Of a DNA stretch of 64,000 nt, positions 3 through 59,683 are shown piece after piece (position 1 is the first letter of the stretch; each line of letters begins with the position of its first letter). The stretch spans positions 35,860 through 99,859 of the IMG/VR virus record IMGVR_UViG_3300046314_000558; one strand, given 5' to 3'. Under the pieces are notes generated by a model that saw only the letters and a program-made list of their open reading frames with translations, was not told where the DNA came from and made no database searches. Both the position numbers and the translations under genes were made by a program. This stretch comes from a virus.

Positions 3-695
3 ATCGTTGGAAACGAAAGCCCTGTTAGCGTTGAAAGCGTTGAGCGTGCTGCTGAACAACTGGGTAAAACCACTCGTAGCATTGCATCTAAACTGCGTCA
101 ACTAGACCGTGAAGTTGCTAGTCTTGCAAAAGAAAAAACCAGCGCATTTACTGAAGCAGAAGGCACTGATCTTGCCGACTTCGTTCACGCTAACGCCGGT
201 AACTTGACATACAAAGATATTGCTGAAAACTTTGCTGGCGGTAAATTCACTGCCAAACAAATTCAAGGCAAACTGTTGGCCTTGGAATTGACTGGTTCAG
301 TTAAGCCAGCCGAAAAAGTTGAAGTTGCACGTACATACACAGAAGCCGAAGAAATGACTTTTGTGAAAATGGCTGATGCAGGTAGCTACATTGAAGAAAT
401 CGCTGCTAAACTCAACAAGACAGTTGCATCAGTTCGTGGTAAAGCACTGAGCTTGACTCGCAAAGGTCAAATTGCCAAAATTCCAGCACAAAAAGAATCT
501 CATGCCAAAGAGTCCGTTGACCAAGTAAGCGCATTGGGTGCAGCTATTGCAACAATGACCGTAGCAGAAATTGCTGCTAAGGTTGACAAAACAGAGCGTG
601 GTCTGCGTACATTGCTGACTCGCCGTGGTATCAAAGTTGCTGACTATGACGGTGCAGCTAAAAAAGCCAAAGCAGAAGCCAAAGCTGCTGCTTAA
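3..695 (+). CDS. Partial DNA-binding-like protein with repeated helix-turn-helix units
   Basis: The reading frame is open from the window edge, so the 5' end is missing; about 230 residues are visible. Three or more short units resemble helix-turn-helix or Myb-like folds: 'VERAAEQLGKTTRSIASKL', 'IEEIAAKLNKTVASVRGKA' and 'VAEIAAKVDKTERGLRTLL', each with an E-x-A-A-x-x-x-x-K-T core. The tail is rich in Ala and Lys. I infer a phage DNA-binding protein that could coat or regulate DNA; the exact role is unknown. The frame contains a TTG at 204, but there is no reason to start there because the repeat pattern continues upstream. A strong terminator follows the stop codon. Confidence 0.6.
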   Translation: MVGNESPVSVESVERAAEQLGKTTRSIASKLRQLDREVASLAKEKTSAFTEAEGTDLADFVHANAGNLTYKDIAENFAGGKFTAKQIQGKLLALELTGSVKPAEKVEVARTYTEAEEMTFVKMADAGSYIEEIAAKLNKTVASVRGKALSLTRKGQIAKIPAQKESHAKESVDQVSALGAAIATMTVAEIAAKVDKTERGLRTLLTRRGIKVADYDGAAKKAKAEAKAAA

Positions 696-3364: not shown

Positions 3365-5644
3365 ATGAAAATTGCCATTATTGACAAAGCACCCAATCGA
3401 ACACGCTATAGTGACTATTTTGAGTTCGAGTACGATCAGTTTCACATGAGTTCTGTGCCAATCACCAAGCTACTGAAAAAAGATGTAGATTTGGTAGTGG
3501 ACTTGGAGCCGTATGATTTTGTGATCTTGGTTGGAGCAGAGGCTGCCAAAGAGTATGCAAAAATTACATCAGTAACCAACATGGCTGGTCAACTGGTGCA
3601 AGACAAATTCATTGCTATTTCAAACCCAGCAATGTTGAGCTTTAAACCAGAAGGCAAGCCTGACTTTCAGCGTGCAGTTGATCGTATTCACAAGTACGTT
3701 AAGGGTCAGCTAAAGCCCGCAGTACAAGGTGACTTTGCTGGAATTGATGACACTAACGAAGCCAAGCGATTCTTGCGTGAAGTGCTAGACAATGCTCAAG
3801 GCTATGTTGCATGGGACACGGAAACAACTTGCCTTTATCCACGAGACGGATATGTGCTTGGCGTGTCTATGAGCTACAAGAGCAAGCACGGCAGATATAT
3901 CTTAACAGATTGCTTGGACGATGTTTGCCTAGACTTAATGCGTAAAATTGCCCGTGAGTTTTACACAGTATTTCATAACATGAAGTTTGACTTTAAGATG
4001 ATTAAGTATCACCTTGATATCGACTTTCCTCGTAAGCGGGTGCATGACACTATGGTTATGCACTATGTTCTTGATGAAACTGACTCACACGGCTTGAAAC
4101 CACTAGCCCTAAAGTACACCGATTACGGTGACTATGATTCAGAACTTGATGACTTTAAAAAGGCATACTGTGCAGCACATGGCTTGTTGCAAGATGACTT
4201 TACATATGACCTTATTCCCTTTGATACAATTAGTCGTTATGCTTCTATTGACACAGCCGTTACATACGACCTTTTCCACAAGTTCTGGCCGATTGTCCAA
4301 ACCAATGATAAACTGCGTAAAGTTTACGAAGAAATCTTGATTCCTGGTACACTGTTCCTAATGGACATGGAAGAAGTAGGTATTCCTATGAGTACTGAAC
4401 GCATGGCCGCAGCTAGCAAGTACTTGGATTATGAGATTGAAGAAGCTAAAAAAGTTGTTTACAGCTTTGATGCAGTAAAGCAGTATGAAAAAGATAGTGG
4501 AAAGATCTTTAACCCTAATTCAGTTATGCAGCTTCGCGTTGTGTTATTCGACTATTTGGGTCTTAACCCAACTGGTAAAAAGACTGCAACTGGTGCTGTT
4601 TCTACTGATGCTGAAGTTCTTGGTGAGTTATCTGATGAGCATCCACTACCTGCCGCAATTTTAAAAGTGCGTCAGCTTGGCAAGATTCAGAATACTTATA
4701 TTCAAAAGATTCTGCCAGAAATTGATCGTGACGGTCGTATTCGTACTAACTTCAACTTGATCTTTACTACCAGCGGACGTCTTAGCTCTAGTGGCAAGTT
4801 TAACGCTCAACAGATTCCTCGCGATGACCCTATTATCAAAGGCTGTATCGAAGCTCCAGCTGGCTACAAGATTGTATCACAAGACTTGACCACAGCCGAA
4901 ATGTATTATGCAGCTGTGCTAAGTGGTGACAAGAACTTGCAAGAAGTATTCTCTAGTGGCGGCGACTTTCACTCAACAATTGCTAAAATGGTATTTTCAT
5001 TGCCATGTGCAGTTGAAGATGTTAAAAAGCTATTTGGCTCAATGCGTCAATCAGCTAAGGCTATTTCTTTTGGTATTTTGTATGGTTCGGGTGCTAATAA
5101 AGTATCTCAGACTGTATCAAAAGCTACTGGCGAGAATTACCCAGTTGAGCAAGCCCGTGACGATATTAAACAATACTTTACTAAGTTCAGTCGCCTTAAA
5201 AAGTGGCTGGAAGACCGCAAAAACTTTATTCAAACAAATGGTTACACATACTCATTTTTTGGGCGTAAACGCAGATTACCTAATGTATTTAGCGCAGATA
5301 AAGGTATTGCAGCTCACGAAGTCCGTTCAGGAATTAACGCCGAAGTACAAAGCCTTGCCAGTGATGTTAACTTACTTGGCGCTATGCGAACAGCGGAAGA
5401 GATTGCAGCAAAAGGGCTAGATGCTAAAATCTTTATGCTGGTTCATGACTCAATTGTTGCGCTCGTAAAAGACGAAGATGTGGTGGAATACTGCGAGATC
5501 CTAAAGCGTAACACGCAACACCAATGGGGATGTGAGATTCCAAATGCCCCAATCGGTGTAGATCAAGATATCGGCGAGGATTATAGTTTTGGACATTTCT
5601 CAGAAACATACAAGTTTGTTGGAGATACGCTGGCCCGTATTTAA
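3365..5644 (+). CDS. DNA polymerase, family A (Pol I-like) with 3'-5' exonuclease
   Basis: Replicative polymerase of 759 aa. The 3'-5' proofreading domain has the DxE motif (D151, E153 in 'AWDTETT') and the ExoII-like 'FHNMKFDFKM'. Polymerase motif A is 'SQDLTTAEMYY', the O-helix is 'RQSAKAISFGILYG' and motif C is 'LVHDSIV'. No 5' nuclease domain is present; that activity is supplied by the separate FEN gene at 12404-13249. The residue equivalent to E. coli Phe762 is Phe569, as in bacterial Pol I. The gene has its own promoter and its last 56 bases overlap the next frame. Confidence 0.96.
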   Translation: MKIAIIDKAPNRTRYSDYFEFEYDQFHMSSVPITKLLKKDVDLVVDLEPYDFVILVGAEAAKEYAKITSVTNMAGQLVQDKFIAISNPAMLSFKPEGKPDFQRAVDRIHKYVKGQLKPAVQGDFAGIDDTNEAKRFLREVLDNAQGYVAWDTETTCLYPRDGYVLGVSMSYKSKHGRYILTDCLDDVCLDLMRKIAREFYTVFHNMKFDFKMIKYHLDIDFPRKRVHDTMVMHYVLDETDSHGLKPLALKYTDYGDYDSELDDFKKAYCAAHGLLQDDFTYDLIPFDTISRYASIDTAVTYDLFHKFWPIVQTNDKLRKVYEEILIPGTLFLMDMEEVGIPMSTERMAAASKYLDYEIEEAKKVVYSFDAVKQYEKDSGKIFNPNSVMQLRVVLFDYLGLNPTGKKTATGAVSTDAEVLGELSDEHPLPAAILKVRQLGKIQNTYIQKILPEIDRDGRIRTNFNLIFTTSGRLSSSGKFNAQQIPRDDPIIKGCIEAPAGYKIVSQDLTTAEMYYAAVLSGDKNLQEVFSSGGDFHSTIAKMVFSLPCAVEDVKKLFGSMRQSAKAISFGILYGSGANKVSQTVSKATGENYPVEQARDDIKQYFTKFSRLKKWLEDRKNFIQTNGYTYSFFGRKRRLPNVFSADKGIAAHEVRSGINAEVQSLASDVNLLGAMRTAEEIAAKGLDAKIFMLVHDSIVALVKDEDVVEYCEILKRNTQHQWGCEIPNAPIGVDQDIGEDYSFGHFSETYKFVGDTLARI

Positions 5645-6140: not shown

Positions 6141-7436
6141 ATGCCTAAAGCAGTAATATCAAATCGTATTTACATGGATAATCCTGGTGTAGAACACACA
6201 AAAAAGATTATCGGTGCACTTACCTACAAAATCAAAAAAGACACTGGTTCAAAGCGTTTTGCTACAGTAGAAACTATCAAGAATTATAAGGTGCTGCCCA
6301 AAGGTATTCTATCAATTCCCCAAGGTCGCCTAGACTTAATTCCCGAAGACTATGAAATCATTGATAAACGATTGCTTGAGGATGTACCTTTCCCAACGCC
6401 TAAATATCCTCTACGACCCGAACAGCAAGTGGTTTATGACCCAATCGACGACACGTGCTTTATCAATGCCCTTGTGGGATGGGGAAAGACTTTTACAGCC
6501 TTACACCTTGCTCACAAGTTCGGACAAAAAACTCTTGTTATCACCCACACAGCTGCACTCCGAGACCAGTGGTGCGAAGAAATTGAAGTCCTATTCGGGA
6601 CGCAGTGCGGAGTTATTGGTGGTGGACGAGTTGACCACGCCGACCACTTTATCACAGTGGCCAATATACAGACGCTCAGCAAGTGTGCTGGTGACTTGGC
6701 TAAGGAGTTTGGGACTATTATCTTGGACGAAGCCCACCACTGTCCTGCCACTACATTTGCACAAACAGTGGACGTATTCCATGCCCGCTACCGAATTGCT
6801 CTTAGTGGCACAATGATTCGCAAAGACGGCAAACACATCTTGTTTGGTGACTATTTTGGCCCTCTAGTATACAAGCCACCACAGTCGAATACACTGACTC
6901 CAACAGTGCACATTGTTAAGTCGGGTATTACACTAAAGCCAGGTGTACCTTGGGTTGAAAAAGTCACAGAACTACTAGAATCAGAAAAGTACAGGCAATT
7001 TATTGCAACCATTGCACTAATGCATATGCAAGAGGGTCACTCAGTGTTGGTAATTGCTGACCGAGTGGAGTTTTTACACAAAGTGAAAGAATACATTGGC
7101 GAAGATTGCGCGGTTGTTACAGGCGACACAGATTACGAAGAACGACAGTACGTCAAACAAGAAGTCCTCTCAGGAAACAAAAAAGCCATATGCGGAAGCA
7201 GGCAAATATTCTCAGAAGGCATATCTATTAACACACTCAGCTGTGTTATCCTTGCAGCCCCAATGAGTAACGATAGTCTGCTAGAACAAATTGTGGGTCG
7301 CGTTCAACGATTGCATGAAGGTAAACTTGACCCACTAGTTGTGGACATTAACTTTGCTGGTTATGCGGATAAAAAACAAAACAACGATAGACTAGCCTTG
7401 TATTTACGTAAAGGCTGGCAGGTAATAACAGCATGA
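6141..7436 (+). CDS. Superfamily 2 helicase, UvsW-like
   Basis: ATP-dependent helicase/annealing enzyme that in T4-type phages resolves R-loops and remodels recombination intermediates. Motif I is GWGKT at residues 113-117, motif II is DEAH at 196-199, motif III is 'LSGTM', and motif VI is 'QIVGRVQR' near residue 385. Length 431 aa, close to T4 UvsW (about 500). It starts one base after the previous stop. A promoter for the next transcription unit begins 13 bases after its end. Confidence 0.9.
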   Translation: MPKAVISNRIYMDNPGVEHTKKIIGALTYKIKKDTGSKRFATVETIKNYKVLPKGILSIPQGRLDLIPEDYEIIDKRLLEDVPFPTPKYPLRPEQQVVYDPIDDTCFINALVGWGKTFTALHLAHKFGQKTLVITHTAALRDQWCEEIEVLFGTQCGVIGGGRVDHADHFITVANIQTLSKCAGDLAKEFGTIILDEAHHCPATTFAQTVDVFHARYRIALSGTMIRKDGKHILFGDYFGPLVYKPPQSNTLTPTVHIVKSGITLKPGVPWVEKVTELLESEKYRQFIATIALMHMQEGHSVLVIADRVEFLHKVKEYIGEDCAVVTGDTDYEERQYVKQEVLSGNKKAICGSRQIFSEGISINTLSCVILAAPMSNDSLLEQIVGRVQRLHEGKLDPLVVDINFAGYADKKQNNDRLALYLRKGWQVITA

Positions 7437-7876: not shown

Positions 7877-8518
7877 ATGGCAATTTCATTTAAAAACACC
7901 AAAGGCAAAGCTCAATCAAACAAAGTTGAGGCTTACGAGTACAAAGACGGCGAAAACACAGTTCGACTAGTAGGCGGCGTTCTTCCACGCTATATTTACT
8001 GGATCAAGGGCAGCAACAACAAGGATATTCCTGTTGAATGTTTGGCTTTCAGCCGCGACAAAGAAAAATTCGATAACATCGAAAAAGATCATGTCCCACA
8101 GTTCTACCCAGAGCTGAAGTGCTCATGGAGTTATACAGTTAACTGTATTGACCCAAAAGACGGCAAAGTCAAAGCTCTGAACTTGAAAAAGAAACTGTTT
8201 GAGCAAATTGTAAGTGCAGCAGAAGACTTGGGCGATCCAACAGATTTTGATACTGGTTGGGACGTTGTGTTCAAGCGCACTAAGACTGGGCCTCTAGCCT
8301 TTAATATCAGCTACGATCTCTCAGTACTACGTTGCAAGCCACGTAAGCTAACTGATGAAGAACGTGCAGCTGCTGAAGCAGCCAAGTCAATTGATGAAAA
8401 ATATCCTCGCCCAACAGAAGCCGAAGTGCTAGCCCTGTTGGAAAAAGTTACCTCTAACACAGATGACGGCGATGCAGGCGATGACTCTGCTCAAGAAGCT
8501 GTTAAAGAACTAGGTTGA
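7877..8518 (+). CDS. Single-stranded DNA-binding protein (phage type)
   Basis: A 213-aa protein with a beta-rich core (residues 1-160) and a C-terminal tail of Asp and Glu (from about residue 195, 'TDDGDAGDDSAQE'), the hallmark of SSBs that recruit replication partners. The core resembles T4-type and related phage SSBs in layout (basic N-terminus 'FKNTKGKAQ', aromatic residues 'YIYWIKG' and 'SWSYTV'). It would coat single strands at the fork and in recombination. A terminator follows directly, so it ends its transcription unit. Confidence 0.75.
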   Translation: MAISFKNTKGKAQSNKVEAYEYKDGENTVRLVGGVLPRYIYWIKGSNNKDIPVECLAFSRDKEKFDNIEKDHVPQFYPELKCSWSYTVNCIDPKDGKVKALNLKKKLFEQIVSAAEDLGDPTDFDTGWDVVFKRTKTGPLAFNISYDLSVLRCKPRKLTDEERAAAEAAKSIDEKYPRPTEAEVLALLEKVTSNTDDGDAGDDSAQEAVKELG

Positions 8519-8525
8519 TATATGT

Positions 8526-8560
8526 AGCCCGCAATCCTGAAAAGCTTGCGGGCTATTTTG
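8526..8560 (+). terminator. Terminator after SSB
   Basis: A 9-bp stem, AGCCCGCAA (8526-8534) with TTGCGGGCT (8546-8554), followed by a short imperfect T tract (ATTTTG). It would reduce read-through into the nuclease genes. Confidence 0.75.
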
Positions 8561-17106: not shown

Positions 17107-17694
17107 ATGCAACAACAATTTATGCCGTTTGGTTGGCCTATGCCAGCCTACTTACCACTACCACCTATAATAGAAGACAATGATTTATTTATAAACAGTG
17201 TAGTTAATGGTAGTTCAACACCAGGGCCTCAAGGCGAACCAGGGCCACAAGGCGAACCAGGGCCACAAGGCGAAGCTGGTGTTAGTGTAGTTAGTGCAGA
17301 AGTATCACCAAATCCCGGTGACCTAATGCTAACACTCAGCAACGGTGAAATAATAAATGCTGGCAGTGTAATAGGGCCTGAGGGACCACCTGGACCAAGT
17401 GAAAGTTGTGGTTGCAATACTACAACTATTACAGAAGACTACTACGCCACTGAAAAGGATTGCTATATTGGGGCGCAACTAAAAGATAAGGCAAGTGTTA
17501 TGCTACCTAGTAACGTAAAGCCTGGTACTAAATACTCTATAAAACTAGAATTTGGTGCCCCTGTAGGCAACAGGAAACTAACAATACAACCAGAATCGCC
17601 AGCGCTAATAAACGGAGTTACGGCAATTACGATGACTACTCCTTATGAGAGTATTAATGTAATTTTTAATAATGGCAATTGGTGGACTATATAA
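17107..17694 (+). CDS. Collagen-like repeat protein
   Basis: Start chosen at the ATG at 17107, with GGAG 8 bases upstream, rather than the in-frame TTG at 17095. The 195-aa protein has two Gly-X-Y stretches, 'GPQGEPGPQGEPGPQGEAG' at about residues 39-57 and 'GPEGPPGP' further on, separated by a short beta-rich part, and a Cys motif 'SCGCN'. Residues after about 105 look globular. Collagen-like stalks in phages usually trimerise and extend fibres or surface decorations; that role is inferred. It is separate from the tail genes, which lie on the other strand. Confidence 0.75.
   Translation: MQQQFMPFGWPMPAYLPLPPIIEDNDLFINSVVNGSSTPGPQGEPGPQGEPGPQGEAGVSVVSAEVSPNPGDLMLTLSNGEIINAGSVIGPEGPPGPSESCGCNTTTITEDYYATEKDCYIGAQLKDKASVMLPSNVKPGTKYSIKLEFGAPVGNRKLTIQPESPALINGVTAITMTTPYESINVIFNNGNWWTI
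17221..17274 (+). repeat. Three 18-bp tandem repeats encoding collagen triplets
   Basis: The unit CCAGGGCCNCAAGGCGAA occurs at 17221-17238, 17239-17256 and 17257-17274, with one base differing in the first. It encodes the GPQGEP unit and could expand or shrink by slippage. Confidence 0.9.
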
Positions 17695-17702
17695 GGAATA
17701 AA

Positions 17703-18140
17703 ATGGAAGAACTAAAACTGGCGCTTAAACGCGCTTTTGCAACAACTTATGCGTTCTTGGTGAAATCAGAAAACTTTCACTGGAACGTAACAGGCCCAAA
17801 CTTTGTGCAACATCACGAACTGTTTGGTAAAATTTATGACGAGGTAGATGATGAGCTGGATGACTTTGCTGAGCGCGTGCGCGCTTTACGTTGCTTTGTG
17901 CCTGCTAGTTTCTCGCAACTTAGTGAAAATTCGCAAATTTTGGATACGCTGGAAATACTACCACCGACCGAAATGGTACGTACACTATACGTTGACAACG
18001 GCAAAGTACACACGGCGCTAATGGAAGCCTATGCACTTGCTGAAACTGAAGGTGAGCACGGACTAAGTGCGTTTTTAAGTGAACGCATTGACGCACACCG
18101 CAAACATGGTTGGATGTTGTATTCAACAATGCAACCATAA
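17703..18140 (+). CDS. dps: Dps-family ferritin-like protein
   Basis: A 145-aa four-helix protein of the Dps family, which oxidises and stores iron as 12-mers and can protect DNA from peroxide. The whole ferroxidase centre is present with the correct spacing: H26 and H38 ('FHWNVTGPNFVQHH'), D53 and E57 ('DELDDFAER'). The start is the ATG with AAGGA 8 bases upstream, just after the collagen-like gene. There is no long Lys-rich N-terminal tail, so direct DNA binding is uncertain. The gene ends at a bidirectional terminator. It may handle iron released by the phage heme oxygenase, which is inference. Confidence 0.92.
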   Translation: MEELKLALKRAFATTYAFLVKSENFHWNVTGPNFVQHHELFGKIYDEVDDELDDFAERVRALRCFVPASFSQLSENSQILDTLEILPPTEMVRTLYVDNGKVHTALMEAYALAETEGEHGLSAFLSERIDAHRKHGWMLYSTMQP

Positions 18141-24060: not shown

Positions 24061-24684
24061 TTACGCTCCTAGTACGTGTAGTGCATGTTGGTAATGCTTA
24101 ATGCGATCTTCTAAGCCAATAGTACCGCCATTAATGCGTTTTGTTAATGTAAGAATATCACCAGCGTCTGCCCACTGATTAAGTTTATTAGTTTCCCAAA
24201 ACCAACAAGCACTTTGAGCCGCACCTTCAAATGTTTCCAAGTATTCAGCAGCTTCTTCAACACCGATACCTAAGCTAGCAGCAAACCAAGTGTAGTTGTC
24301 TTTGCCAGTTAGCTGAATAAGACCCTTGCCACTATAACGATAGCCGTCGCCAGATTCTACCGGCCCGTTGCCCATGCGGTTGGCATACACAAGGTTGGCA
24401 ATTGCTTGCTGCTTGTTTGGCATCGCTGCATACTGCTGTGCCAACTCATCTGTGGGAAAGTACTTGGGAAATATCTTGCGTAGTGTAACTGCACGATAAT
24501 TTAAGTTTTCACGCAGTGCTGTAAAGCCGCCTGACTCGTGCGCACACTGTGCAACAAAAGCTGCAATGCGTTGTGGCGTATTGATTTTGTAGTCTGGTAA
24601 CAGCTGAGCTAGTGCCACATGCCATTGCTTAACATATGGATTACGAGGAATCAGCTGTTGTAGCTGTTCGAGAGTTAAATTCAT
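24061..24684 (-). CDS. Endolysin, glycoside hydrolase family 19 (chitinase-type muramidase)
   Basis: Cell-wall lytic enzyme of 207 aa. The family 19 core is visible: catalytic E50 in 'CAHESGGF', 'LVYANRMGNGPVESGDGYRYSGKGLIQLTG' region at about residues 95-124, and 'SACWFWE' further on. No signal peptide or membrane segment, so it depends on a holin to reach the wall. Its ATG overlaps the o-spanin-like gene's stop (TAATG in the sense direction), placing it in the lysis operon. Confidence 0.92.
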   Translation of the reverse strand: MNLTLEQLQQLIPRNPYVKQWHVALAQLLPDYKINTPQRIAAFVAQCAHESGGFTALRENLNYRAVTLRKIFPKYFPTDELAQQYAAMPNKQQAIANLVYANRMGNGPVESGDGYRYSGKGLIQLTGKDNYTWFAASLGIGVEEAAEYLETFEGAAQSACWFWETNKLNQWADAGDILTLTKRINGGTIGLEDRIKHYQHALHVLGA

Positions 24685-24947
24685 TACTTTAGTCCTTCAT
24701 GAATAAGTTTTTGTTTTTGGTACCACTCTTGCCAAGCTTCCAATTTGACCAAACAGCTGTAGTATTCGTTATAGTTAACGCTTACAGTTTTAGCAACACC
24801 GCTAAGAGTTGTGGTTGGGTCCAGCTTTTGTAGTGGTGGGCAGGCCTGCATGCTTTGCAAGCCTGGGGCCTCTGGCCACCGTTGCGTGACTGGCACGACT
24901 GTGGAGCAACCACTTAATAGTGCTAGTGATAGTAGTAGTGCTTTCAT
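24684..24947 (-). CDS. Rz1-like outer-membrane lipoprotein (o-spanin candidate)
   Basis: An 87-aa lipoprotein with lipobox LLSGC ending at C14, followed by a Pro-containing stretch and three more Cys. Small lipoproteins of this kind ('TVVPVTQRWPEAP', then 'YYSCLVKLEAWQEWY') beside an endolysin are common in phages and are taken as Rz1-like spanins that help break the outer membrane. It overlaps the probable i-spanin gene by four bases. Confidence 0.75.
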   Translation of the reverse strand: MKALLLSLALLSGCSTVVPVTQRWPEAPGLQSMQACPPLQKLDPTTTLSGVAKTVSVNYNEYYSCLVKLEAWQEWYQKQKLIHEGLK

Positions 24948-25363
24948 TTAGGTTGCTCCGCTGCACGATTGTGTGCGTCTACAAATTCTTTGGGTATAGC
25001 ACAAGTGTTGTCGTATTTGACTACTTCACGGTCAATATACTGGATATTATCTGCACCGCGTTTTGTAATCACCTGTGTTTTGTATACTACTTTTTCTTTG
25101 ATAACTTCGTTGGTGGCCGCACTTGCCACTTCAGCTTGTGCAACTTTGGCCTCCAACTCTTGTGCCGCAGCTTTCCATGTGTTATCGCAGTACAGCATTC
25201 CCATAATGAAAATTGTTGCGGCTACGAGGATAGGGCTCACAATTTTAATAATGAACTCGTACGGTTTTAGCAGTTTTAAATGGCTTAAAAAATAGCCAGA
25301 TAATCCGGCTATTAATAACAGCCACCAAAACCAGTCTGGAATGATTTTGAAAATTAAAAACAT
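24944..25363 (-). CDS. Rz-like inner-membrane protein (i-spanin candidate)
   Basis: The 139-aa product has two hydrophobic N-terminal helices (about 9-28 and 37-60) and then a helical Ala/Glu/Lys region of about 75 residues reaching into the periplasm, with two Cys near the end. Overlap with a lipoprotein gene and a following endolysin gene fits an i-spanin/o-spanin pair. Two membrane helices rather than one are unusual for Rz. Confidence 0.7.
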   Translation of the reverse strand: MFLIFKIIPDWFWWLLLIAGLSGYFLSHLKLLKPYEFIIKIVSPILVAATIFIMGMLYCDNTWKAAAQELEAKVAQAEVASAATNEVIKEKVVYKTQVITKRGADNIQYIDREVVKYDNTCAIPKEFVDAHNRAAEQPK

Positions 25364-27281: not shown

Positions 27282-28460
27282 TTACATCTCCAGAGTAGTT
27301 ACTGCTGCTTTCCACTGTAGAGAAACTCCTGATAAACCGGTTACGTATAAATTAATACTATTATTTACATCATCTGCTCTAACGTCAACAGTAATATTAG
27401 GGGAGCTTCTGGTAACTACAATTTCGTAGACGTTACCTACGTCAGATACCACGTTGGCCTTGTTTGACACAACGCTTTTTAGCGTAAAAGCAGCATAGTT
27501 ACTACCGTCATTTGATTCTGTACATACAACATCAACTGTATAATAAGTATTTGTACCCGTAGTAGTAGGAATCCTACTGTCTGGAATACCGCCAACAAAT
27601 AATTCAGTTTCTACAGCAGTTGTAGTATACCCAACCATTAAATATTGGTTAGTGTAAGGTGAGGATGCTATAGAACCGTAAAAAACTTCTTTTGTACTTG
27701 CGTCGTATTGTAGAACACCAAACGAGGTTTGTCCACTAAAACTGCTGCGTATAGGGTTAATGTATAAGCCAGCGGCGCTAGAACTTAGGCTACTATACGC
27801 ATCAGTATTTATAACTATAGATCCTGCTGCTGATGCGGTAGTACTAGGTCCTAGAGCAATGGCTCCGGCTGTTGCTATGGCATTAGTACCAATGGCTATA
27901 GCATAGGAATCAGCAGTAGAAGCACCAGATCCAATAGCTATCTCATTACTACCATTATTATATGTACCGTAACCTATAGCAATACTATTGGAAAGCATGC
28001 TACCCGGACCAGGGCTACCAGAGTGCGAATTATTACCAATAGCAATACAATTACTGGCAGAAGTAACATTGTTACCAATACCAATACTACTTCCACCGCC
28101 TACTACGTCCTCATTGTTGTTTCCAATCATTATGGAAGGTGTTCCAGGATGGTTGGAAATTATTTTAATAGGTGCATTAGAAGGAAATTCTATATTAGAT
28201 AATTTTAACCCAGGGTAGTACGTACCATCGCTACCTGTGTCCGAGTCAATAAAGCCCAAAGTATGACCAAGAGTGTTAGAAATAGAGCCGCTACTGCCAC
28301 CGCCACCACCGCCAGTACCAGTGGGTTTATTGGTCAAATCTGTATAACTACCGGAGGTTGCAACAGTGGCCAATCCTGCAACCTCACTAGCCTGTACTAC
28401 GCCGTCTGCTAGTAATTGCCCATTTGAGGCTAAATTTGCCAATAGTCTTGCTTTAGTCAT
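27282..28460 (-). CDS. Tail fibre/adhesin with YadA-type head repeats
   Basis: The 392-aa protein has a short coiled N-terminal part, a Gly-run linker, and at about residues 105-215 a series of 'NSIAIGYGT', 'NEIAIGSGA', 'YAIAIGTNA' repeats of about 14 residues. These are the left-handed parallel beta-roll repeats found in trimeric autotransporter heads. The rest is beta-rich. In a phage this is a trimeric fibre likely to bind the host. AAGGG precedes its ATG. Confidence 0.75.
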   Translation of the reverse strand: MTKARLLANLASNGQLLADGVVQASEVAGLATVATSGSYTDLTNKPTGTGGGGGGSSGSISNTLGHTLGFIDSDTGSDGTYYPGLKLSNIEFPSNAPIKIISNHPGTPSIMIGNNNEDVVGGGSSIGIGNNVTSASNCIAIGNNSHSGSPGPGSMLSNSIAIGYGTYNNGSNEIAIGSGASTADSYAIAIGTNAIATAGAIALGPSTTASAAGSIVINTDAYSSLSSSAAGLYINPIRSSFSGQTSFGVLQYDASTKEVFYGSIASSPYTNQYLMVGYTTTAVETELFVGGIPDSRIPTTTGTNTYYTVDVVCTESNDGSNYAAFTLKSVVSNKANVVSDVGNVYEIVVTRSSPNITVDVRADDVNNSINLYVTGLSGVSLQWKAAVTTLEM

Positions 28461-28469
28461 AAGCCGCCC

Positions 28470-28553
28470 TTAATTTGCAGCAGCACGTGCTGCTAAATAT
28501 TCTAATATTTCCCGCTCATAGTTCTGGAAATAACTCTTTATGTATGTACTCAT
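28470..28553 (-). CDS. Possible very small protein, 27 aa
   Basis: An ATG frame overlapping the end of the bilin reductase gene in another frame encodes 'MSTYIKSYFQNYEREILEYL' and an Ala-rich end. It fills the gap up to the 27282 gene. There is no good ribosome binding site, so this is tentative. Confidence 0.25.
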   Translation of the reverse strand: MSTYIKSYFQNYEREILEYLAARAAAN

Positions 28554-29202
28554 GCACTTGGTCATCACTGAATCCCAGGGTTTTTAATACTCGTGGAGTA
28601 TGTGGGTTGCACTTTTGTTGCTGACAGTAATAATTTTGCTGAGCAGTGTAGTCAAACTTGGCAACTTGTTCGTCATAGGTTAAATTAGGACGATTGGCCT
28701 TTATTGCATCCAAGTAGTAAATCAACGACTTTTTACTTAATTCTAGTATCACTGATAGTTCAAATTCTGAGTTTATATTGCCTGCTGCAACCATACGCGG
28801 GCTAAAAATGTTTTGTGCCCAGGCCGGCAGTTGTCGCGGTTTTGACCACTCGGTTGGTTCTACGAACTCTTCAAACCACTTACACATCGGGTGTTCTGGG
28901 TTGCCAGCAGGAGAGAAGTCTAAGAAAGCTCCGGTAATTTTGTTTGTACCAGCTACAATATCAAATCCGTATATTGGGGCTGAGTCGTAGGTGTGTGGAA
29001 ATACGCACAAGTGCATCATCCACAGTTTTTTACTATCACTTACGTCAATAATGTCCAAGTTAGCACGGCGTACCCAAGCACTTAAGTAATTCTTGGTGTA
29101 CCATTCTGAGGTGATTTCACTGGTCGAAAGAAAAGCACGCTGATTGAGGATGCTTTCCAATTCTTCAGCGTGCTTTTTTAATTTGTTAAATATTGTGCTC
29201 AT
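28516..29202 (-). CDS. Ferredoxin-dependent bilin reductase (PcyA/PcyX/PebS family)
   Basis: Reduces biliverdin IXa, made by the heme oxygenase upstream, to a phycobilin using electrons from ferredoxin. The 228-aa length equals that of the family. Core signatures are visible: 'MHLCVFPHTYDSAPIYGFDI' then 'VAGTNKITGAFLDFSP' (catalytic Asp95, which lines up with Asp105 of PcyA/PebS), and the C-terminal 'YYCQQQKCNPHTPRVL' and 'YIHKELFPEL', which match cyanobacterial PcyA ends. By spacing from that Asp, the PcyA Glu76 and His88 positions hold Cys66 and Tyr78, so it is unlikely to be a standard PcyA; a PcyX-like enzyme making phycoerythrobilin is the best guess. No ferredoxin gene is seen in the window. 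It overlaps the heme oxygenase gene by 17 bases. Confidence 0.9.
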   Translation of the reverse strand: MSTIFNKLKKHAEELESILNQRAFLSTSEITSEWYTKNYLSAWVRRANLDIIDVSDSKKLWMMHLCVFPHTYDSAPIYGFDIVAGTNKITGAFLDFSPAGNPEHPMCKWFEEFVEPTEWSKPRQLPAWAQNIFSPRMVAAGNINSEFELSVILELSKKSLIYYLDAIKANRPNLTYDEQVAKFDYTAQQNYYCQQQKCNPHTPRVLKTLGFSDDQVHEYIHKELFPEL

Positions 29203-29728
29203 CGGCTAGCTCGTCAAATAAGTCAAATATTAATTCAAAGCACTTGTTTGCCTCTGCAGCCATGTTGTCCGATAATTTTTCTCGTAATGCTTTAATAGTA
29301 TCATTACGGTTTTCAAACTCATACATAAGTCCGCTGCCAGGTATTACCCGTTTAATCATCTGACCTCCGTACATGTCGCCCATATGTCGAACATATACAT
29401 GTGCTAGCAGCCCTGCATCGTTTAAAGTATCTAAATGATTTTCATAAGCTGTAGTAGCTGGATAAGTAGCGGCTAATGGAGGAAAAACCATCGAACGGAT
29501 AAGTTCTTGTAAGTCTTCATAAATAGCTGGCGTACGATAAATTCCTGGTAGATTGTTGAGCAATCCACGCGATTTACACAAGTGTTCTAGCTTTTTATAC
29601 GCCGCTAACTGATTGAATAAGTAATCGTAGTAAATACTTTTAGCCATATTACCAGATACCAACAACTTAGTAAATCTATGCTGTTCTGCTAGCTGATGAC
29701 TAGCATGTGTTTGTTCTTTTAATGACAT
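29186..29728 (-). CDS. ho: Heme oxygenase
   Basis: Opens the heme ring to biliverdin, carbon monoxide and ferrous iron, with electrons from ferredoxin or a similar donor. The N-terminal 'THASHQLAEQHRF' places the proximal heme ligand at H11, and the distal helix signature 'AHVYVRHMGDMYGGQMIKR' (about residues 110-128) matches the family pattern with GD-x-x-GGQ. The 180-aa length is a little shorter than bacterial and cyanophage enzymes. The ATG lies 6 bases after a terminator hairpin and has no Shine-Dalgarno sequence; the next in-frame ATG is too far inside to be the start. It is the first gene of a two-gene cassette inside the tail-fibre array. Confidence 0.95.
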   Translation of the reverse strand: MSLKEQTHASHQLAEQHRFTKLLVSGNMAKSIYYDYLFNQLAAYKKLEHLCKSRGLLNNLPGIYRTPAIYEDLQELIRSMVFPPLAATYPATTAYENHLDTLNDAGLLAHVYVRHMGDMYGGQMIKRVIPGSGLMYEFENRNDTIKALREKLSDNMAAEANKCFELIFDLFDELADEHNI

Positions 29729-29733
29729 AATGT

Positions 29734-29760
29734 AAAAACAAGGGCTTGTGCCCTTGTTTT
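29734..29760 (-). terminator. Terminator directly before the heme oxygenase start
   Basis: On the - strand, AAAACAAGGGC pairs with GCCCTTGTTTT around an ACAA loop, then a T tract. It covers the stop codon of the tail chaperone gene and ends 6 bases before the heme oxygenase ATG. Confidence 0.88.
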
Positions 29761-30205
29761 ATTTGGTTGGTTTGACTGGAACAATAATTTCACTAGGGTT
29801 TTGAATATTAGCATATGTAGTCGTCATATCACGCAATTGTTGACGATATGTAGCCCACTCTGCACGCTTTTCTGCACTTAAACCATTATCTGGCAACTGT
29901 GACCAGTCCGATAGGTATAATTCATAATCACGCTGTCTGCGAACCCATAAGTCAGCTTTTTCTTCCTGAGATAATTCACGAGTAGTGATTATATTGCGAA
30001 CAATTCCGTCATCACACATCTCATAACCATCTTCACTTAGCAGTTCTTGCGAAATACTTGCACCACGTCGCTCAAAAGGGGCGTACCCCTTTTGAGTTAA
30101 CAGTTCTGGCGTAATTTCGTTTACCTGCCAAACTTCAAGTAAGTTAGGCTCAAAAACTGGATGGTCAATTGGCTGATTATTTTGTATTTTTATATAAAGT
30201 TTCAT
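29759..30205 (-). CDS. Tail fibre assembly chaperone-like protein
   Basis: A 148-aa protein with the layout of phage tail-fibre assembly proteins: an N-terminal beta part ('NQPIDHPVFEPNLLEV') and a C-terminal helical module 'WVRRQRDYELYLSDWSQLPD' plus 'EWATYRQQLRDM', typical of the APC-type chaperone domain. It directly follows the large fibre gene (10-base gap), which is the usual place for a chaperone that folds that fibre's tip. Confidence 0.8.
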   Translation of the reverse strand: MKLYIKIQNNQPIDHPVFEPNLLEVWQVNEITPELLTQKGYAPFERRGASISQELLSEDGYEMCDDGIVRNIITTRELSQEEKADLWVRRQRDYELYLSDWSQLPDNGLSAEKRAEWATYRQQLRDMTTTYANIQNPSEIIVPVKPTK

Positions 30206-30214
30206 TGTATTCCT

Positions 30215-33200
30215 TTATGCAGTGATGATTGGTTGGTCAGCGGTTAGAGTACTAGGAAATGCACGTCCAGCACCCCAAATTAAACGTACTCCAGCAGCTC
30301 CACCACGTTGTTGAAAAGCGTTTGGACTATTTTGACTGGTACTAGTACCACTACTACCACCGCCTCCACCATAATCTCCGCCACGCGCGCTGCCGTTGCC
30401 ATAACTGCCGGTTTCTCCGTGGGTACCATTTCCGCCACCACTACCACCACCGCCACCACTACCGTTAACGTTGACTTGGCCATAGCCAGCAACCCAACCC
30501 CCGGTACCGCTAGCACCTTGGCCCAATAAGCCCACACCGCCACCGCCGCCAACACCCCAAGTGCTACTATAACCATCCCTGGCCGCTGCACCACCTCCGC
30601 CAGGGTTTGCATTACCATTACCACTACCGCCAGCACCTGTATAACCAGCAGCACCCCCGCCGCCTGTACTCCAGCTACCTGCACCGCCAGTACCACCAAC
30701 ACCACCACCGTCGCCAACCCAACCACCGCCATAAGCATTACCAGTACCCGATGAATTAGGTCCGCCTGCTCCGCCGTGGTATCCAGCAACAGTAGTTGCA
30801 TTAATAAAGAAGGAAGGCGTACCTCCAGAGTTGCTTGACGAGTTTGTAGGCTGAGTGCCGTAACTACCAACTTGCACAGTATAACTATTGCCAGGTACAA
30901 CAGTAATATTGTTTTTCCAACCTAAACCACCACCACCTGCACCGCCGCTTGACCACTGATAGCCTCCCCAGCCGCCACTACCAACGCAAACAGCGCTTAC
31001 TGAGGTAACTGCAGTAGGAGCTACCCAGGTATATGTTCCAGGACCAACGTTAGTTCCGTACAATTGTTGGCCTTGTGGGTAGTTTAAGGCAAAATTCCAC
31101 GTAAACTTTTTATCTAGACTAACACTGCCAGCTGTAGCTCGTACAGTAAATGTAAATTTAGTAGTAGCTGCTATACTAGCAGGAGCTGTTCCAGTTAGTG
31201 TACCACTAGAATTCAAGTTTAGCCAACTAGGTAAACTGCCAGCAACTATTGAATGAGTGGCGTTGGTTCCGCTTATTTGTGCTTGTGTAAATGTAAAAGT
31301 ATTTACACTTCCAGGTACAATTAGTCCAGGAGCTGTCGAAGTACTATACATAGGCACTCCAGGGCCTACAATTAAAGTTACTGGCTTATACCCTGCTACT
31401 CCTCCGCTAGACGTAGCTATTACTGTGAAGCTGTAACTACTATTAGGAATATTGCCGGTGGCACTAACAACACCAGAAGAACTATCAATAGATAGCTGTG
31501 ATGGGGCTCCAACTAATGACCATGTGTACGTAAATGATGCGGCAATTTGGTTAGTTGCAGTATAGGTTTTTTGCTGAAAAGTGCTACCAGTTGTTAAACT
31601 CATAGTACTATCACCGTCAACCTGTACAATAGAATCCCAGTAGTTAACTGTACCGTCAGTACGTAAGAACGCACCAGGTAAGTTAAGTCTAGGAGGTACT
31701 GCACTAGTAACTAAATTAGTAACATAACCAACAACAGCACTTTGTGTAGGCACTTTAGTAGGACTATTTTGTGCTAGTGTAGTATCAGTACTAAATTCAT
31801 TAATTTGAGCACCTAGCTGAGCTCCAATAGATCCCAGGCGTAAACTAGTTAAACCACTTAAGTTAAAGGCATTAGCATTTAGTGTAGCGCTACCAGTAGC
31901 TTGGTTAACTGCAAAATAAGGTCCAACACGGAAATTACCAGATTGATCGGTACTTAGGTAGTATACTCGACCAGGAAATGTTTGTACAACTTCTTTTGAT
32001 TGATCTGGTTGCTGCGTAGGAGTATTTGGGTAGTTTGTACTACTTACTCCGCCAGTACCAATATTTAAAAAGTCGTGACCAGTTAGGCGTACTAAACTAA
32101 ATTTATAACGAATACTGGCCACAGAGCCTGCAGCAGAGGTATTTACTTTTTGCTGAGCTAGTACCACTGTAATAACACTAGCGGCATTTGCCCAACCGCC
32201 AGAAACGGACTGGATAATATAAGAAGAACTGTCTCCGGCTAGTTGAATACTTCCACCAGCTACAGGTAGTGCGGTTAAGTTATTAAGGATTAAGGTAAAA
32301 CCTGCTTGTCCACCAACACTAGATATTGTTCCTGAACCACCACTTGTAGTAGTAAAGGTGCTACCTTGGGTAAACGCACCGCCTGCATTCTCTGCAATAT
32401 AAAGCGAGGTAGCTTGAGCACTAGTAACAACAGCTGTTGCTCCAGTATTGCTTGTAATGGTATCTCCTGGATTAATAGTTCCAGTATATGCGCTTGCTAA
32501 AGTCAGCATTGAACCGTAAACTGTACCAGTAACTGGTGTTTCACTAGCAGAGTAACCTGAAGCTACAGAACCATATGTACCATAAGAATTATTACCCGCT
32601 ACAGAACGCAATTGACCGCCGTTAGTTGCTGCGTAACCAAAATAACAGTAGTAAGTAAATGCAGACACAGCTTCTGCTGCACCACCATTGTCAATCCACA
32701 AAGCTACCCCATTGTCATGAATATTAGTATACTCATGAAATAACATAGACTTGTTACCGCTATTATGTACAGCACCATTAACGTAAGCACCAATTGCATT
32801 ATTACCAAAAGCCGCACATTCTAGAACATAAGGTGATTTAGTGGTAACAGGAGAAGCAGGGTTTAGTGCACAAAAAATACCTCGAGGTGTAGAGGTAGTA
32901 ATATCAGCAGGGATACTACCAGTACTCCAACCTGTCATTCCTTTAAAGGCTAGTTTATTCAGTAATGAACCATCTGACATCAACCACATGGTTGAGTTGG
33001 AATTACTAGTTACCCCATCAAGACTAGTACCGGTTTTAGGGGCTACAATTGTAGAACGCTGTCCATCGCCAACAATAGCTACGTTAGCTGGAATAGTGAT
33101 TGGTAACTGTTCTTCGTATGTTCCTGTTTTTACAAAAATTGTACTAAAAGGCGCTGCATTATTACATGCATACGCAATAGTTTTAAAGGAATTAGTAAGG

Positions 33201-33463
33201 CTAGTACCAAATCCTTCACTGTCAGTTCCATGAGGAGTAACGTAGTAGGTATTTTCGCTATAAGTAGCTGTACCGGCACCCGTAAGCATTACTGTCCAAT
33301 ATGCCGTGGTTGTTGGTATGGTACCAACTGTACCACTAGCATTAGTATAGCAATATACATTGCCGTTATAGCTTACTACGTCATTAAGAGTATATGTAAC
33401 GGCAGCGTCATATGCTCCTAGGTAGTTAAATCTAAGTTTTCCAAGATCAATTGTTTGTGTCAT
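30215..33463 (-). CDS. Large tail fibre with beta-helix and glycine-rich tip
   Basis: 1082 aa. The N-terminus 'LGKLRFNYLGAYDAAVTYTL' is a short attachment/binding module. Residues about 75-300 look like a right-handed beta-helix ('YYVTPHGTDSEGFGTSLTNS', 'VAIVGDGQRSTIV'), with cadherin/Ig-like beta domains at about 640-860 and a Gly-run tip at about 880-1060 ('GGGGSGGGNG' type). Poly-glycine tips of this kind occur in T4-like gp38 adhesins and several tail fibres that recognise surface proteins. It is followed by a fibre chaperone. Host recognition is the likely role. Confidence 0.85.
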   Translation of the reverse strand: MTQTIDLGKLRFNYLGAYDAAVTYTLNDVVSYNGNVYCYTNASGTVGTIPTTTAYWTVMLTGAGTATYSENTYYVTPHGTDSEGFGTSLTNSFKTIAYACNNAAPFSTIFVKTGTYEEQLPITIPANVAIVGDGQRSTIVAPKTGTSLDGVTSNSNSTMWLMSDGSLLNKLAFKGMTGWSTGSIPADITTSTPRGIFCALNPASPVTTKSPYVLECAAFGNNAIGAYVNGAVHNSGNKSMLFHEYTNIHDNGVALWIDNGGAAEAVSAFTYYCYFGYAATNGGQLRSVAGNNSYGTYGSVASGYSASETPVTGTVYGSMLTLASAYTGTINPGDTITSNTGATAVVTSAQATSLYIAENAGGAFTQGSTFTTTSGGSGTISSVGGQAGFTLILNNLTALPVAGGSIQLAGDSSSYIIQSVSGGWANAASVITVVLAQQKVNTSAAGSVASIRYKFSLVRLTGHDFLNIGTGGVSSTNYPNTPTQQPDQSKEVVQTFPGRVYYLSTDQSGNFRVGPYFAVNQATGSATLNANAFNLSGLTSLRLGSIGAQLGAQINEFSTDTTLAQNSPTKVPTQSAVVGYVTNLVTSAVPPRLNLPGAFLRTDGTVNYWDSIVQVDGDSTMSLTTGSTFQQKTYTATNQIAASFTYTWSLVGAPSQLSIDSSSGVVSATGNIPNSSYSFTVIATSSGGVAGYKPVTLIVGPGVPMYSTSTAPGLIVPGSVNTFTFTQAQISGTNATHSIVAGSLPSWLNLNSSGTLTGTAPASIAATTKFTFTVRATAGSVSLDKKFTWNFALNYPQGQQLYGTNVGPGTYTWVAPTAVTSVSAVCVGSGGWGGYQWSSGGAGGGGLGWKNNITVVPGNSYTVQVGSYGTQPTNSSSNSGGTPSFFINATTVAGYHGGAGGPNSSGTGNAYGGGWVGDGGGVGGTGGAGSWSTGGGGAAGYTGAGGSGNGNANPGGGGAAARDGYSSTWGVGGGGGVGLLGQGASGTGGWVAGYGQVNVNGSGGGGGSGGGNGTHGETGSYGNGSARGGDYGGGGGSSGTSTSQNSPNAFQQRGGAAGVRLIWGAGRAFPSTLTADQPIITA

Positions 33464-35826: not shown

Positions 35827-36093
35827 TTAAAACTGACCAGATTCAATTATTTGTTGATCTAGTAGCTTGGTGGCAGTCCACTGCTGTGTTGTGGCATTAT
35901 ACACTAGTGTGCTGCCGCCCTGTAGGTTTGTAGTATCAATGTCCACTGCGTTTGTAATAGAACTAGTTGCAGCCGGAGGCATCATGCCGGTAACAATAAC
36001 CGTGGCCTGCTTATCATCAACAACCAGGTTATGTGTTTGTGTGGTTTGTATAACCGTGCTATTATTTGATTCGGTTACAACTACATCAGTCAT
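35827..36093 (-). CDS. Small tail-associated protein, 88 aa
   Basis: A Thr/Val-rich protein with a central 'PPAATSSITNAVDIDTTNL' and 'STLVYNATTQQWTATKLLD', a fibre-type segment often found next to attachment modules. It overlaps the 36090 gene by four bases. A baseplate or fibre connector role is inferred. Confidence 0.6.
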   Translation of the reverse strand: MTDVVVTESNNSTVIQTTQTHNLVVDDKQATVIVTGMMPPAATSSITNAVDIDTTNLQGGSTLVYNATTQQWTATKLLDQQIIESGQF

Positions 36094-57766: not shown

Positions 57767-59683
57767 TTAAGCTACGTAACGTAGAGCGGAAACTGCACCG
57801 CCTAGGTTTGTTGTAACTTGAGTCATGCCAGTACGTAGGCTAGCTACCATAACACGACGTTGTGTCTCTACCAAGTCTTGTGTATCAACACGTAGACCAC
57901 GCTGGTTACCAACCAAGAAGTTACCTGGGTTGAAACAGATTGCGCCAACAGCGTCAGCAGCCTTATCTGCAAACTCAGCACTTACGATAACTGGTGTGTT
58001 ACCAACTGCACCGATTTGACCAGTTAACAGAGTGGCTTGATTACCAACTTTGTCAACAGTTAGGAAGTTTGTGTCTTCTAACAGGTCGTAGTAGTTTTCT
58101 GTGCTTACGATGTAAACTAGTTCTGAAGGATCTAGACCCCAGGCACCTAGGTCACGACGCATTTGCTGTAGCTTAGCAACAGTCATTTTAGCAGCATCGC
58201 TGATATCTAGAGTAACGGCGCTTACTGCATCGTAAGTTGCCAAGCCTTTAACTGGGTCACTACCTGTACCTGCACCACGTAGCATAGCACGGTCAACAGC
58301 GCGAGCAACACGGCGAACCATGGCGTCACGGATAACAGGCATAATGGCCAATAGGCTGTCTTCTTCTTCTTCGTATGCAACGTATTCGTTTGTAGCAACT
58401 TTATACGCGTTCAAAGTGATTTCTTTTAGTGCATGAGTAGCTTCGTTACCAGCACTTGCTGTTGTACCAAACGCTGTGTTAGCCATCCATGTAGCAACAC
58501 CAGCTTCTGGGTTCACAGGAATAGTCATAACGTTGGTCTGCATAGTAATACCACGCAGGTTAGGAGCAACAACTAAACGACGGCGAACTTCGTTTTCCAT
58601 GTTAGTGGATACTTCTAGTTCCCATGTAGCGCTTGGTAGGTGAGCACCGTACTTTTGGATCATTTCTTGACCAAACTTAGTGTCGCCTAGAGCTTTACCT
58701 GCCATCTTTGCAAGAATAACGGCCTTCTCTTTGTCAGCATAAGACATTTCGCCGGCTTTGCCGTCTGTGAAAGTCATACGTGATTTCTGAATGGCTTCTA
58801 GTTCAGCAGCTTTCTCTTTTAGAGCGCTCTCTAGACCTGCAACAACAGATTTAGTTTCGTCAGCTTGAGCAGCAAAACGCTTCTCTACTTCGGCCATTAG
58901 TGCCTCAGCACCGGTTGTGGTTGGTGTTGCTAGGGCAACAGCAGCCTTGATTTTTGCGTCTAAGTCAGCAGCTTCTTTGTCAGCAAGTGCTTTTTCAGCA
59001 GCAGCTTTTTCTTGAGCAGCTAGCAGGGACTTAGTGGCTTGCTCAGCGGCAGCGGCCAACATTTTTTGTAGTTCTTCTGGAGTCATTTCCAATTCCTTTG
59101 TGATATTGCTTTTTGCATCGCCGGAGGCTTCTAGCCCTTTAGCTGAGTCGCTTGGGTTAGCAAATTGCATTTTGAAACTCTTAAATTCTTCGGCCGTGTC
59201 AAACGCCTTAGAAAGACTAAATAGTGTATTTTGATTTGCTGGTACAGACACAACGGATATTTCGTGTAGTTCCAGTTCTTTTACAACAAACAGCTCTAAG
59301 GCTGAATTATATTCCGCATCAACGATACGGAAACCAATGCTAAAGGCGGTTAGCACGCCGTCTTTTACAAGATTGAAAACATCCTCAGCTGCTGCAGAAA
59401 TTCTTGCTTTTACATACAAGCCTTTCTCATCGACGCGGTGGTCTGTCATTCTTCCAACTGGTTCACTGTGGTCGTGGTAAGCAAGAATTACTGGATTTTT
59501 CAAGTAATTCTCAATACCCTTTTGCCACACCGCAGCTGGAACAATGTCACCGTGTCTGTCAACGTCATTGGTTGAAGCGTAACCTTCGATGGTCACGCTG
59601 TCAATTTTGCCGTCAGCAGTTGGTAGAGGTTCACTCTTAGTAAAAGAACTGTTTAAAAACAGCACTTTATTTTTATCTACCAT
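57767..59683 (-). CDS. Fused prohead protease, scaffold and major capsid protein (HK97 type)
   Basis: 638 aa in one gene. Residues 1-160 are an HK97-family prohead protease with the His in 'AYHDHSEPVGRM' (H70/H72), Ser115 in 'LTAFSIGFR' and Glu141 in 'ELHEISVVSVPAN'. Residues about 195-310 are a charged coiled coil (delta/scaffold domain, many Ala, Glu, Lys). From about 315 the HK97 capsid fold follows ('EVRRRLVVAPNLRGITMQTN', 'GNQRGLRVDTQ'). The phage has no separate protease gene, so the fusion must cut itself during maturation. Confidence 0.92.
   Translation of the reverse strand: MVDKNKVLFLNSSFTKSEPLPTADGKIDSVTIEGYASTNDVDRHGDIVPAAVWQKGIENYLKNPVILAYHDHSEPVGRMTDHRVDEKGLYVKARISAAAEDVFNLVKDGVLTAFSIGFRIVDAEYNSALELFVVKELELHEISVVSVPANQNTLFSLSKAFDTAEEFKSFKMQFANPSDSAKGLEASGDAKSNITKELEMTPEELQKMLAAAAEQATKSLLAAQEKAAAEKALADKEAADLDAKIKAAVALATPTTTGAEALMAEVEKRFAAQADETKSVVAGLESALKEKAAELEAIQKSRMTFTDGKAGEMSYADKEKAVILAKMAGKALGDTKFGQEMIQKYGAHLPSATWELEVSTNMENEVRRRLVVAPNLRGITMQTNVMTIPVNPEAGVATWMANTAFGTTASAGNEATHALKEITLNAYKVATNEYVAYEEEEDSLLAIMPVIRDAMVRRVARAVDRAMLRGAGTGSDPVKGLATYDAVSAVTLDISDAAKMTVAKLQQMRRDLGAWGLDPSELVYIVSTENYYDLLEDTNFLTVDKVGNQATLLTGQIGAVGNTPVIVSAEFADKAADAVGAICFNPGNFLVGNQRGLRVDTQDLVETQRRVMVASLRTGMTQVTTNLGGAVSALRYVA

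Follow-up and report, generated by a model that had tools for sequence, protein, structure and literature searches.

A gene pair predicted to turn heme into a reduced bilin is carried by a phage that, judged from its structural and replication genes, is a distant T5-like siphovirus (Demerecviridae-like). The stretch analysed (the window, 64,000 bases) runs from base 35860 to base 99859 of a virus record of 99,859 bases, which may be incomplete. The first gene of the pair (29186..29728, minus strand) encodes a heme oxygenase (HO) of 180 aa, and the second (28516..29202, minus strand) a PcyX-type ferredoxin-dependent bilin reductase (FDBR) of 228 aa. Both open reading frames are on the minus strand at the positions given in the original prediction, and they share 17 bases (29186..29202). 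An overlap of 11-74 bases recurs in nearly all carrier contigs and measures 14 bases in the Pelagibacter phage Mosig, so that translational coupling of the two genes through the overlap is probable. At two loci, L170 and L171:3890-5708, a 2OG-Fe(II)-oxygenase-like gene separates HO from the reductase and the overlap is absent. Just 5' of the HO start we noted a terminator-like stem-loop of 11 pairs (29735..29760, no strand assigned). A similar hairpin occupies the same site in L003 and L013, and the element may act as an insulator between the pair and the fibre genes upstream of it. A search of Rfam gave no match.

We examined the HO gene product by family, fold and residues. It scored 65.2 bits against Pfam Heme_oxygenase (PF01126; curated cut-off 23) and matched several solved heme oxygenases in the PDB by sequence (E 3.5e-8). 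The AlphaFold model (pLDDT 95.6) displays the all-helical HO fold and matched PDB heme oxygenases at E 4e-8, with a TM of about 0.8. The proximal H11 and the distal G117, D118, G121 and G122 (HMGDxxGGQ) are invariant among 32 aligned phage sequences, which bears out the family signatures, a proximal His11 and a GD-x-x-GGQ distal helix, that had been read from this sequence alone. By sequence and modelled structure the gene at 29186-29728 is predicted to encode a canonical heme oxygenase of the HO-1/HmuO superfamily.

Likewise, the reductase scored 70.7 bits against Pfam Fe_bilin_red (PF05996; curated cut-off 31). Its best solved relative by sequence is PcyX (PDB 5owg, E 1.3e-50); cyanobacterial PcyA comes next, at E about 1e-10. 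The AlphaFold model (pLDDT 91.4) adopts the alpha/beta/alpha FDBR fold and matched PcyA (E 1e-13) and PcyX 5owg (E 9e-13). A maximum-likelihood tree built from 55 FDBRs joins the phage reductases with those of Mosig and 5owg in a single clade (support 100/99), next to a PcyA clade (95/88) and the Peb side (98/98). Alphaproteobacterial PcyA, which has been joined with PcyX as the AX lineage (PMC10151467), is not among these sequences, so the tree does not reach the border inside AX. Constraining the window FDBR to PcyA was rejected (AU p=0.0008). The reductase thus falls in the PcyX clade, inside the FDBR family.

The residues that accompany this placement corrected one point of the original prediction, which had named Asp95 as the catalytic Asp of the reductase. 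The catalytic Asp is D81, because D81 aligns with Asp105 of PcyA and Asp105 of PebS, the latter position read directly from the D105N crystal mutant 2x9i; it also aligns with Asp86 of PcyX and is invariant in 32 of 32 sequences. Asp95 is thereby ruled out as the catalytic residue; D95 is also invariant and is distinct from the established catalytic Asp. The alignments therefore show that HO His11 and the catalytic Asp of the reductase, as D81, are both kept. H64 aligns with PcyA His88. D50 corresponds to Glu76 of PcyA and to residue 63 in the 5owg chain; since the native Met is residue 9 of that chain, residue 63 is Asp55 of PcyX. Asp occupies the D50 position in the window protein and in 40 of the 42 phage rows of the tree, and Glu in all five PcyA rows. 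The tree and the residues (Asp, not the Glu76 of PcyA) exclude a PcyA or PebS identity, and the PcyX-type assignment made earlier is upheld by family, tree and Asp55 equivalent.

Asp55 has been called PcyX-specific, and the phycocyanobilin (PCB) product of the CB_2 phage reductase has been attributed to its lack of Asp55 (Wegner et al., PMC11480375). Given the PcyX grouping and the Asp55 residue, phycoerythrobilin (PEB) is the likely product of the window pair. The two enzymes are almost certainly what they were first taken to be; these identities and PEB as likely product, taken together and leaving the role of the pair aside, we consider quite probable. Two PcyX-like phage reductases, L180:5001-5669 and L193:5001-5654, have Ser at the Asp55/Glu76 position, and their product may differ. 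L180 belongs to a different phage lineage, in which a beta-ketoacyl-synthase-like gene (L180:3252-4484) directly precedes the bilin pair.

The nature of the carrier, which the original prediction had missed, emerges from three groups of genes. A fused head protease/major capsid protein of T5-like type (57767..59683, minus strand), which matches the PHROGs for major head protein/head maturation protease, shares about 37% identity with those of Vibrio T5-like phages, and a T5-like DNA polymerase (3365..5644, plus strand) shows 48% identity over 99% of its length to theirs. Both are nearest to phages of Vibrio and Pantoea. Furthermore, the tail genes of the record are of the non-contractile type. 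This lineage differs from the T4-like carriers described so far. The cultured T5-like phages among the matches infect gammaproteobacteria. The part of the record before the window holds a run of 25 tRNA genes (L042:2362-13506) that covers most amino acids. Similar small proteins of about 100 aa are scattered in the non-structural region (L041:478-804, 4327-4656, 6536-6847 and 8238-8549; L042:3096-3383; window 204-695), the clearest copies with the motif YTPEQT..V.DY..G..VE.IAE.LGKTVRSVVAKL.

The pair lies between tail-fibre and lysis genes, all on the minus strand. Upstream are a tail-fibre assembly chaperone (29759..30205; Pfam Phage_tail_APC, PHROG tail fiber assembly) and a large tail-fibre protein of 1082 aa (30215..33463) with Ig-like and pectinesterase-like stretches, which belongs to the carriers' tail-fibre family 6. 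The next gene downstream encodes a YadA-head-like fibre protein (27282..28460) with weak YadA_head repeats under the curated cut-off. Further on are a small membrane protein without a Pfam match (24944..25363, family 2), which by position would be Rz/spanin-like, and a GH19-type endolysin (24061..24684, family 3; Pfam Glyco_hydro_19 at 25.6 bits, at the cut-off). Family 2 is found directly 3' of the pair in most T5-like carriers, and family 3 is also found downstream of it; the usual order after the pair in these phages is Rz-like gene, small gene, GH19 endolysin. On the 5' side, T5-like carriers have either a tail fibre with its chaperone or a sugar-biosynthesis-like gene block. In many of them this block, with carbamoyltransferase-, sugar-kinase-, nucleotidyltransferase- and epimerase-like genes (L036:4095-9508, L009:4141-9509 and similar loci), replaces the tail-fibre genes directly 5' of the pair. 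In T4-like carriers the pair precedes neck genes. The earlier description of a pair set amid tail-fibre genes and lacking photosynthesis genes is therefore accurate: no photosystem reaction-centre gene was detected in the 99,859-base record, nor in any of the 40 carrier records that include it.

We then asked how widespread the pair is. A first scan returned 38 IMG/VR contigs with reductases 53-82% identical to that of the window, and a profile scan found relatives encoded on 282 or more IMG/VR contigs; contigs with an HO number at least 594. Together with Mosig and the published phage pairs, these numbers indicate that the rarity implied by the original prediction was overstated. The same motif patterns, two strict ones, met only two Prochlorococcus PcyA in the genomes of 84,980 species; because the patterns are strict, rarity in bacteria holds for close kin only, and distant bacterial FDBRs such as alphaproteobacterial PcyA would escape them. 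The window-type capsid gene was present in 11 of 29 records (28 bilin contigs and Mosig). Conversely, among 38 contigs found through the capsid only two carried the FDBR or the pair, both already known bilin contigs, indicating that the pair is dispensable for the lineage. Six capsid-found records of 82-104 kb are without the FDBR. In one of these six, a relative whose capsid is 96% identical, the lysis genes are separated from the next fibre genes by a single fibre-like gene of 2539 aa. The pair is thus optional cargo in a variable region of a T5-like siphovirus clade.

Where the pair occurs, its two members are nearly inseparable. In a scan based on HO, covering the best 79 loci, those nearest to the window HO, an FDBR lies downstream in 77 of the 77 with at least 108 bases downstream; the remaining two end within 98 bases. 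Likewise, HO is present in 37 of the 38 records of the FDBR-based set, the exception being cut at the contig end. L014 and L018 share 96% of their FDBR and only 64% of their HO, which shows that the two genes are replaced independently and that the combination outlives gene replacement. Among the pairs compared, NG86 estimates of dN/dS ranged from 0.04 to 0.11 for FDBR and from 0.04 to 0.26 for HO, with the more distant pairs synonymously saturated; values were well under 1 for both genes in the unsaturated close pairs as well. Both genes are under purifying selection. The simplest reading of the pairing suggests that reduction of biliverdin belongs to what is selected, and pairing alone does not separate a bilin that is the product from one that is a by-product of drawing biliverdin off.

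As predicted from the sequences, the pair should convert host heme into a pink light-absorbing pigment. HO would open host heme to biliverdin IXalpha, Fe2+ and CO, and PcyX would then reduce biliverdin by four electrons to phycoerythrobilin, completing a heme-to-PEB module. No 2Fe-2S ferredoxin (Fer2) was detected in the records searched; as the phage encodes no recognisable ferredoxin, the electrons would have to be drawn from the host, through its ferredoxin or some other donor, and both heme and a compatible ferredoxin are assumed to be supplied by the host. Since the pair lies on the same strand as the tail and lysis genes and in their region, it is probably expressed late. The most likely role, which we put forward tentatively, is that the pair takes host heme apart in a controlled way late in infection; PcyX would be the sink, turning biliverdin into reduced bilin and so pulling the HO reaction forward while iron is freed.

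It is possible, if somewhat unlikely, that iron release is the purpose itself, with HO freeing iron for iron proteins of phage or host and the reductase merely clearing inhibitory biliverdin. A supply of iron has been proposed by earlier authors (PMC11480375). The same phage encodes a Dps-like ferritin and a rubrerythrin (window 17679-18140 and L042:12305-12757), which suggests an iron or oxidative-stress theme, and the record also encodes a glutaredoxin. However, ferritin-family genes occur in capsid relatives that are without the pair; there is no clear association, and these genes are not evidence for the idea. 2OG-Fe(II)-oxygenase-like genes, recognised by sequence features and annotated in Mosig, recur upstream of the pair in T5-like and T4-like carriers and would fit a need for iron, but none adjoins the pair in the window, nor was one present in the fibre regions of five pair-less relatives. 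Iron-tipped fibres are likewise unsupported: the iron-binding HxH motif is absent from the tail fibres of the window and from all 15 tail-fibre proteins searched, although fewer than 0.3 occurrences are expected by chance in any one. Moreover, iron release alone would need no reductase every time, unless for drawing off biliverdin. An antioxidant use, raised in the original prediction, is conceivable as well.

The constant presence of a reductase after HO, in every testable locus, would sit well with a bilin that acts as a ligand, binding to a host protein, for instance a phytochrome or bilin-binding globin, as its chromophore or regulator and thereby altering host behaviour. In E. coli, the PcyA of phage CB_2 is able to provide phytochrome with a functional chromophore (PMC11480375), and in non-photosynthetic bacteria FDBRs are found together with bilin-binding globins (PMC10151467). 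Against this, neither a GAF domain nor a phycobiliprotein-family gene was found in 21 carrier records, and PEB, if made, is a poor phytochrome chromophore. PEB adducts of phytochrome are fluorescent and do not photoconvert. We regard this use of the bilin as improbable. A broader form, that in unrelated phage lineages of non-photosynthetic bacteria the reduced bilin itself, rather than iron or the loss of heme, is selected through an unrecognised bilin-binding target of host or phage, is doubtful; if it were true, such selection would have left its mark in two genes that stay almost always coupled although they recombine independently. A cyanobacterial host, in which the pair would support phycobilisomes as proposed for cyanophage pebS/pcyA, recalls cyanophage P-RSM6, which has an FDBR pair near plastocyanin. 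However, the 40 carrier records are without reaction-centre genes, the capsid and polymerase point towards Vibrio and Pantoea phages, PcyX differs from the PcyA and PebS of cyanophages, and the same pair is found in a cultured Pelagibacter phage, making such a host very improbable.

What purpose a light-harvesting pigment serves for phages of heterotrophs has been named as a question still to be answered (PMC11480375, in its part on tetrapyrrole catabolic enzymes). The T5-like lineage broadens the range of carriers past the T4-like ones of that study, and since the other known T5-like phages come from gammaproteobacteria that can be cultured, a pair-bearing isolate might be within reach. The near-constant pairing of HO and FDBR narrows the possible explanations, and the Ser variants of L180 and L193, at a position linked to the product, are natural test cases.

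The closest known systems are the hemO-pcyX pair of Mosig EXVC030M (MT647606) and the marine metagenomic PcyX of PDB 5owg, which resemble the window in PcyX clade, protein families and catalytic residues. Mosig also shares the HO-FDBR gene order and the overlap, and reaction-centre genes are absent from both records. However, Mosig is a cultured T4-like myovirus of Pelagibacter, whereas the window phage is T5-like; the Mosig pair is preceded by a ferrochelatase and 2OG-Fe(II) oxygenases and followed by T4 neck genes, in place of tail-fibre and lysis genes, and its proteins are only about 40% (FDBR) and 32% (HO) identical to those of the window. Phage pairs linked to non-photosynthetic hosts, with their biochemistry, were described by Wegner et al. 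2024 (PMC11480375), whose contigs were placed by gp13 with myovirus pelagiphages. Among them, the hemO-pcyA/X-alaS cassette of freshwater phage CB_2 and its relatives likewise combines a phage HO and an FDBR, and the hosts are proposed to be non-photosynthetic (PMC11480375). In contrast, the CB_2 reductase is without Asp55 and makes PCB, and the window reductase has Asp at that position. The CB_2 cassette includes alaS, and no 5-ALA synthase (TIGR01821) was found in the window record and 38 carrier contigs (39 records, possibly fragments); with the linked synthase absent, the window pair is not a three-gene hemO-pcyA/X-valaS cassette. Cyanophage pebS and pcyA have the enzyme superfamily and the substrate in common with the window FDBR, but belong to other FDBR clades and have cyanobacterial hosts. 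We found no report of a siphovirus carrying the pair in the open-access literature. Together, PcyX pairs in Mosig and in metagenomic T4-like phages are already known, with enzyme assays published for analogues; what is new here is that a T5-like phage is the vehicle and carries the pair as optional cargo, that the two genes are almost always kept together although they recombine, and that the catalytic residue of the reductase is corrected to D81.
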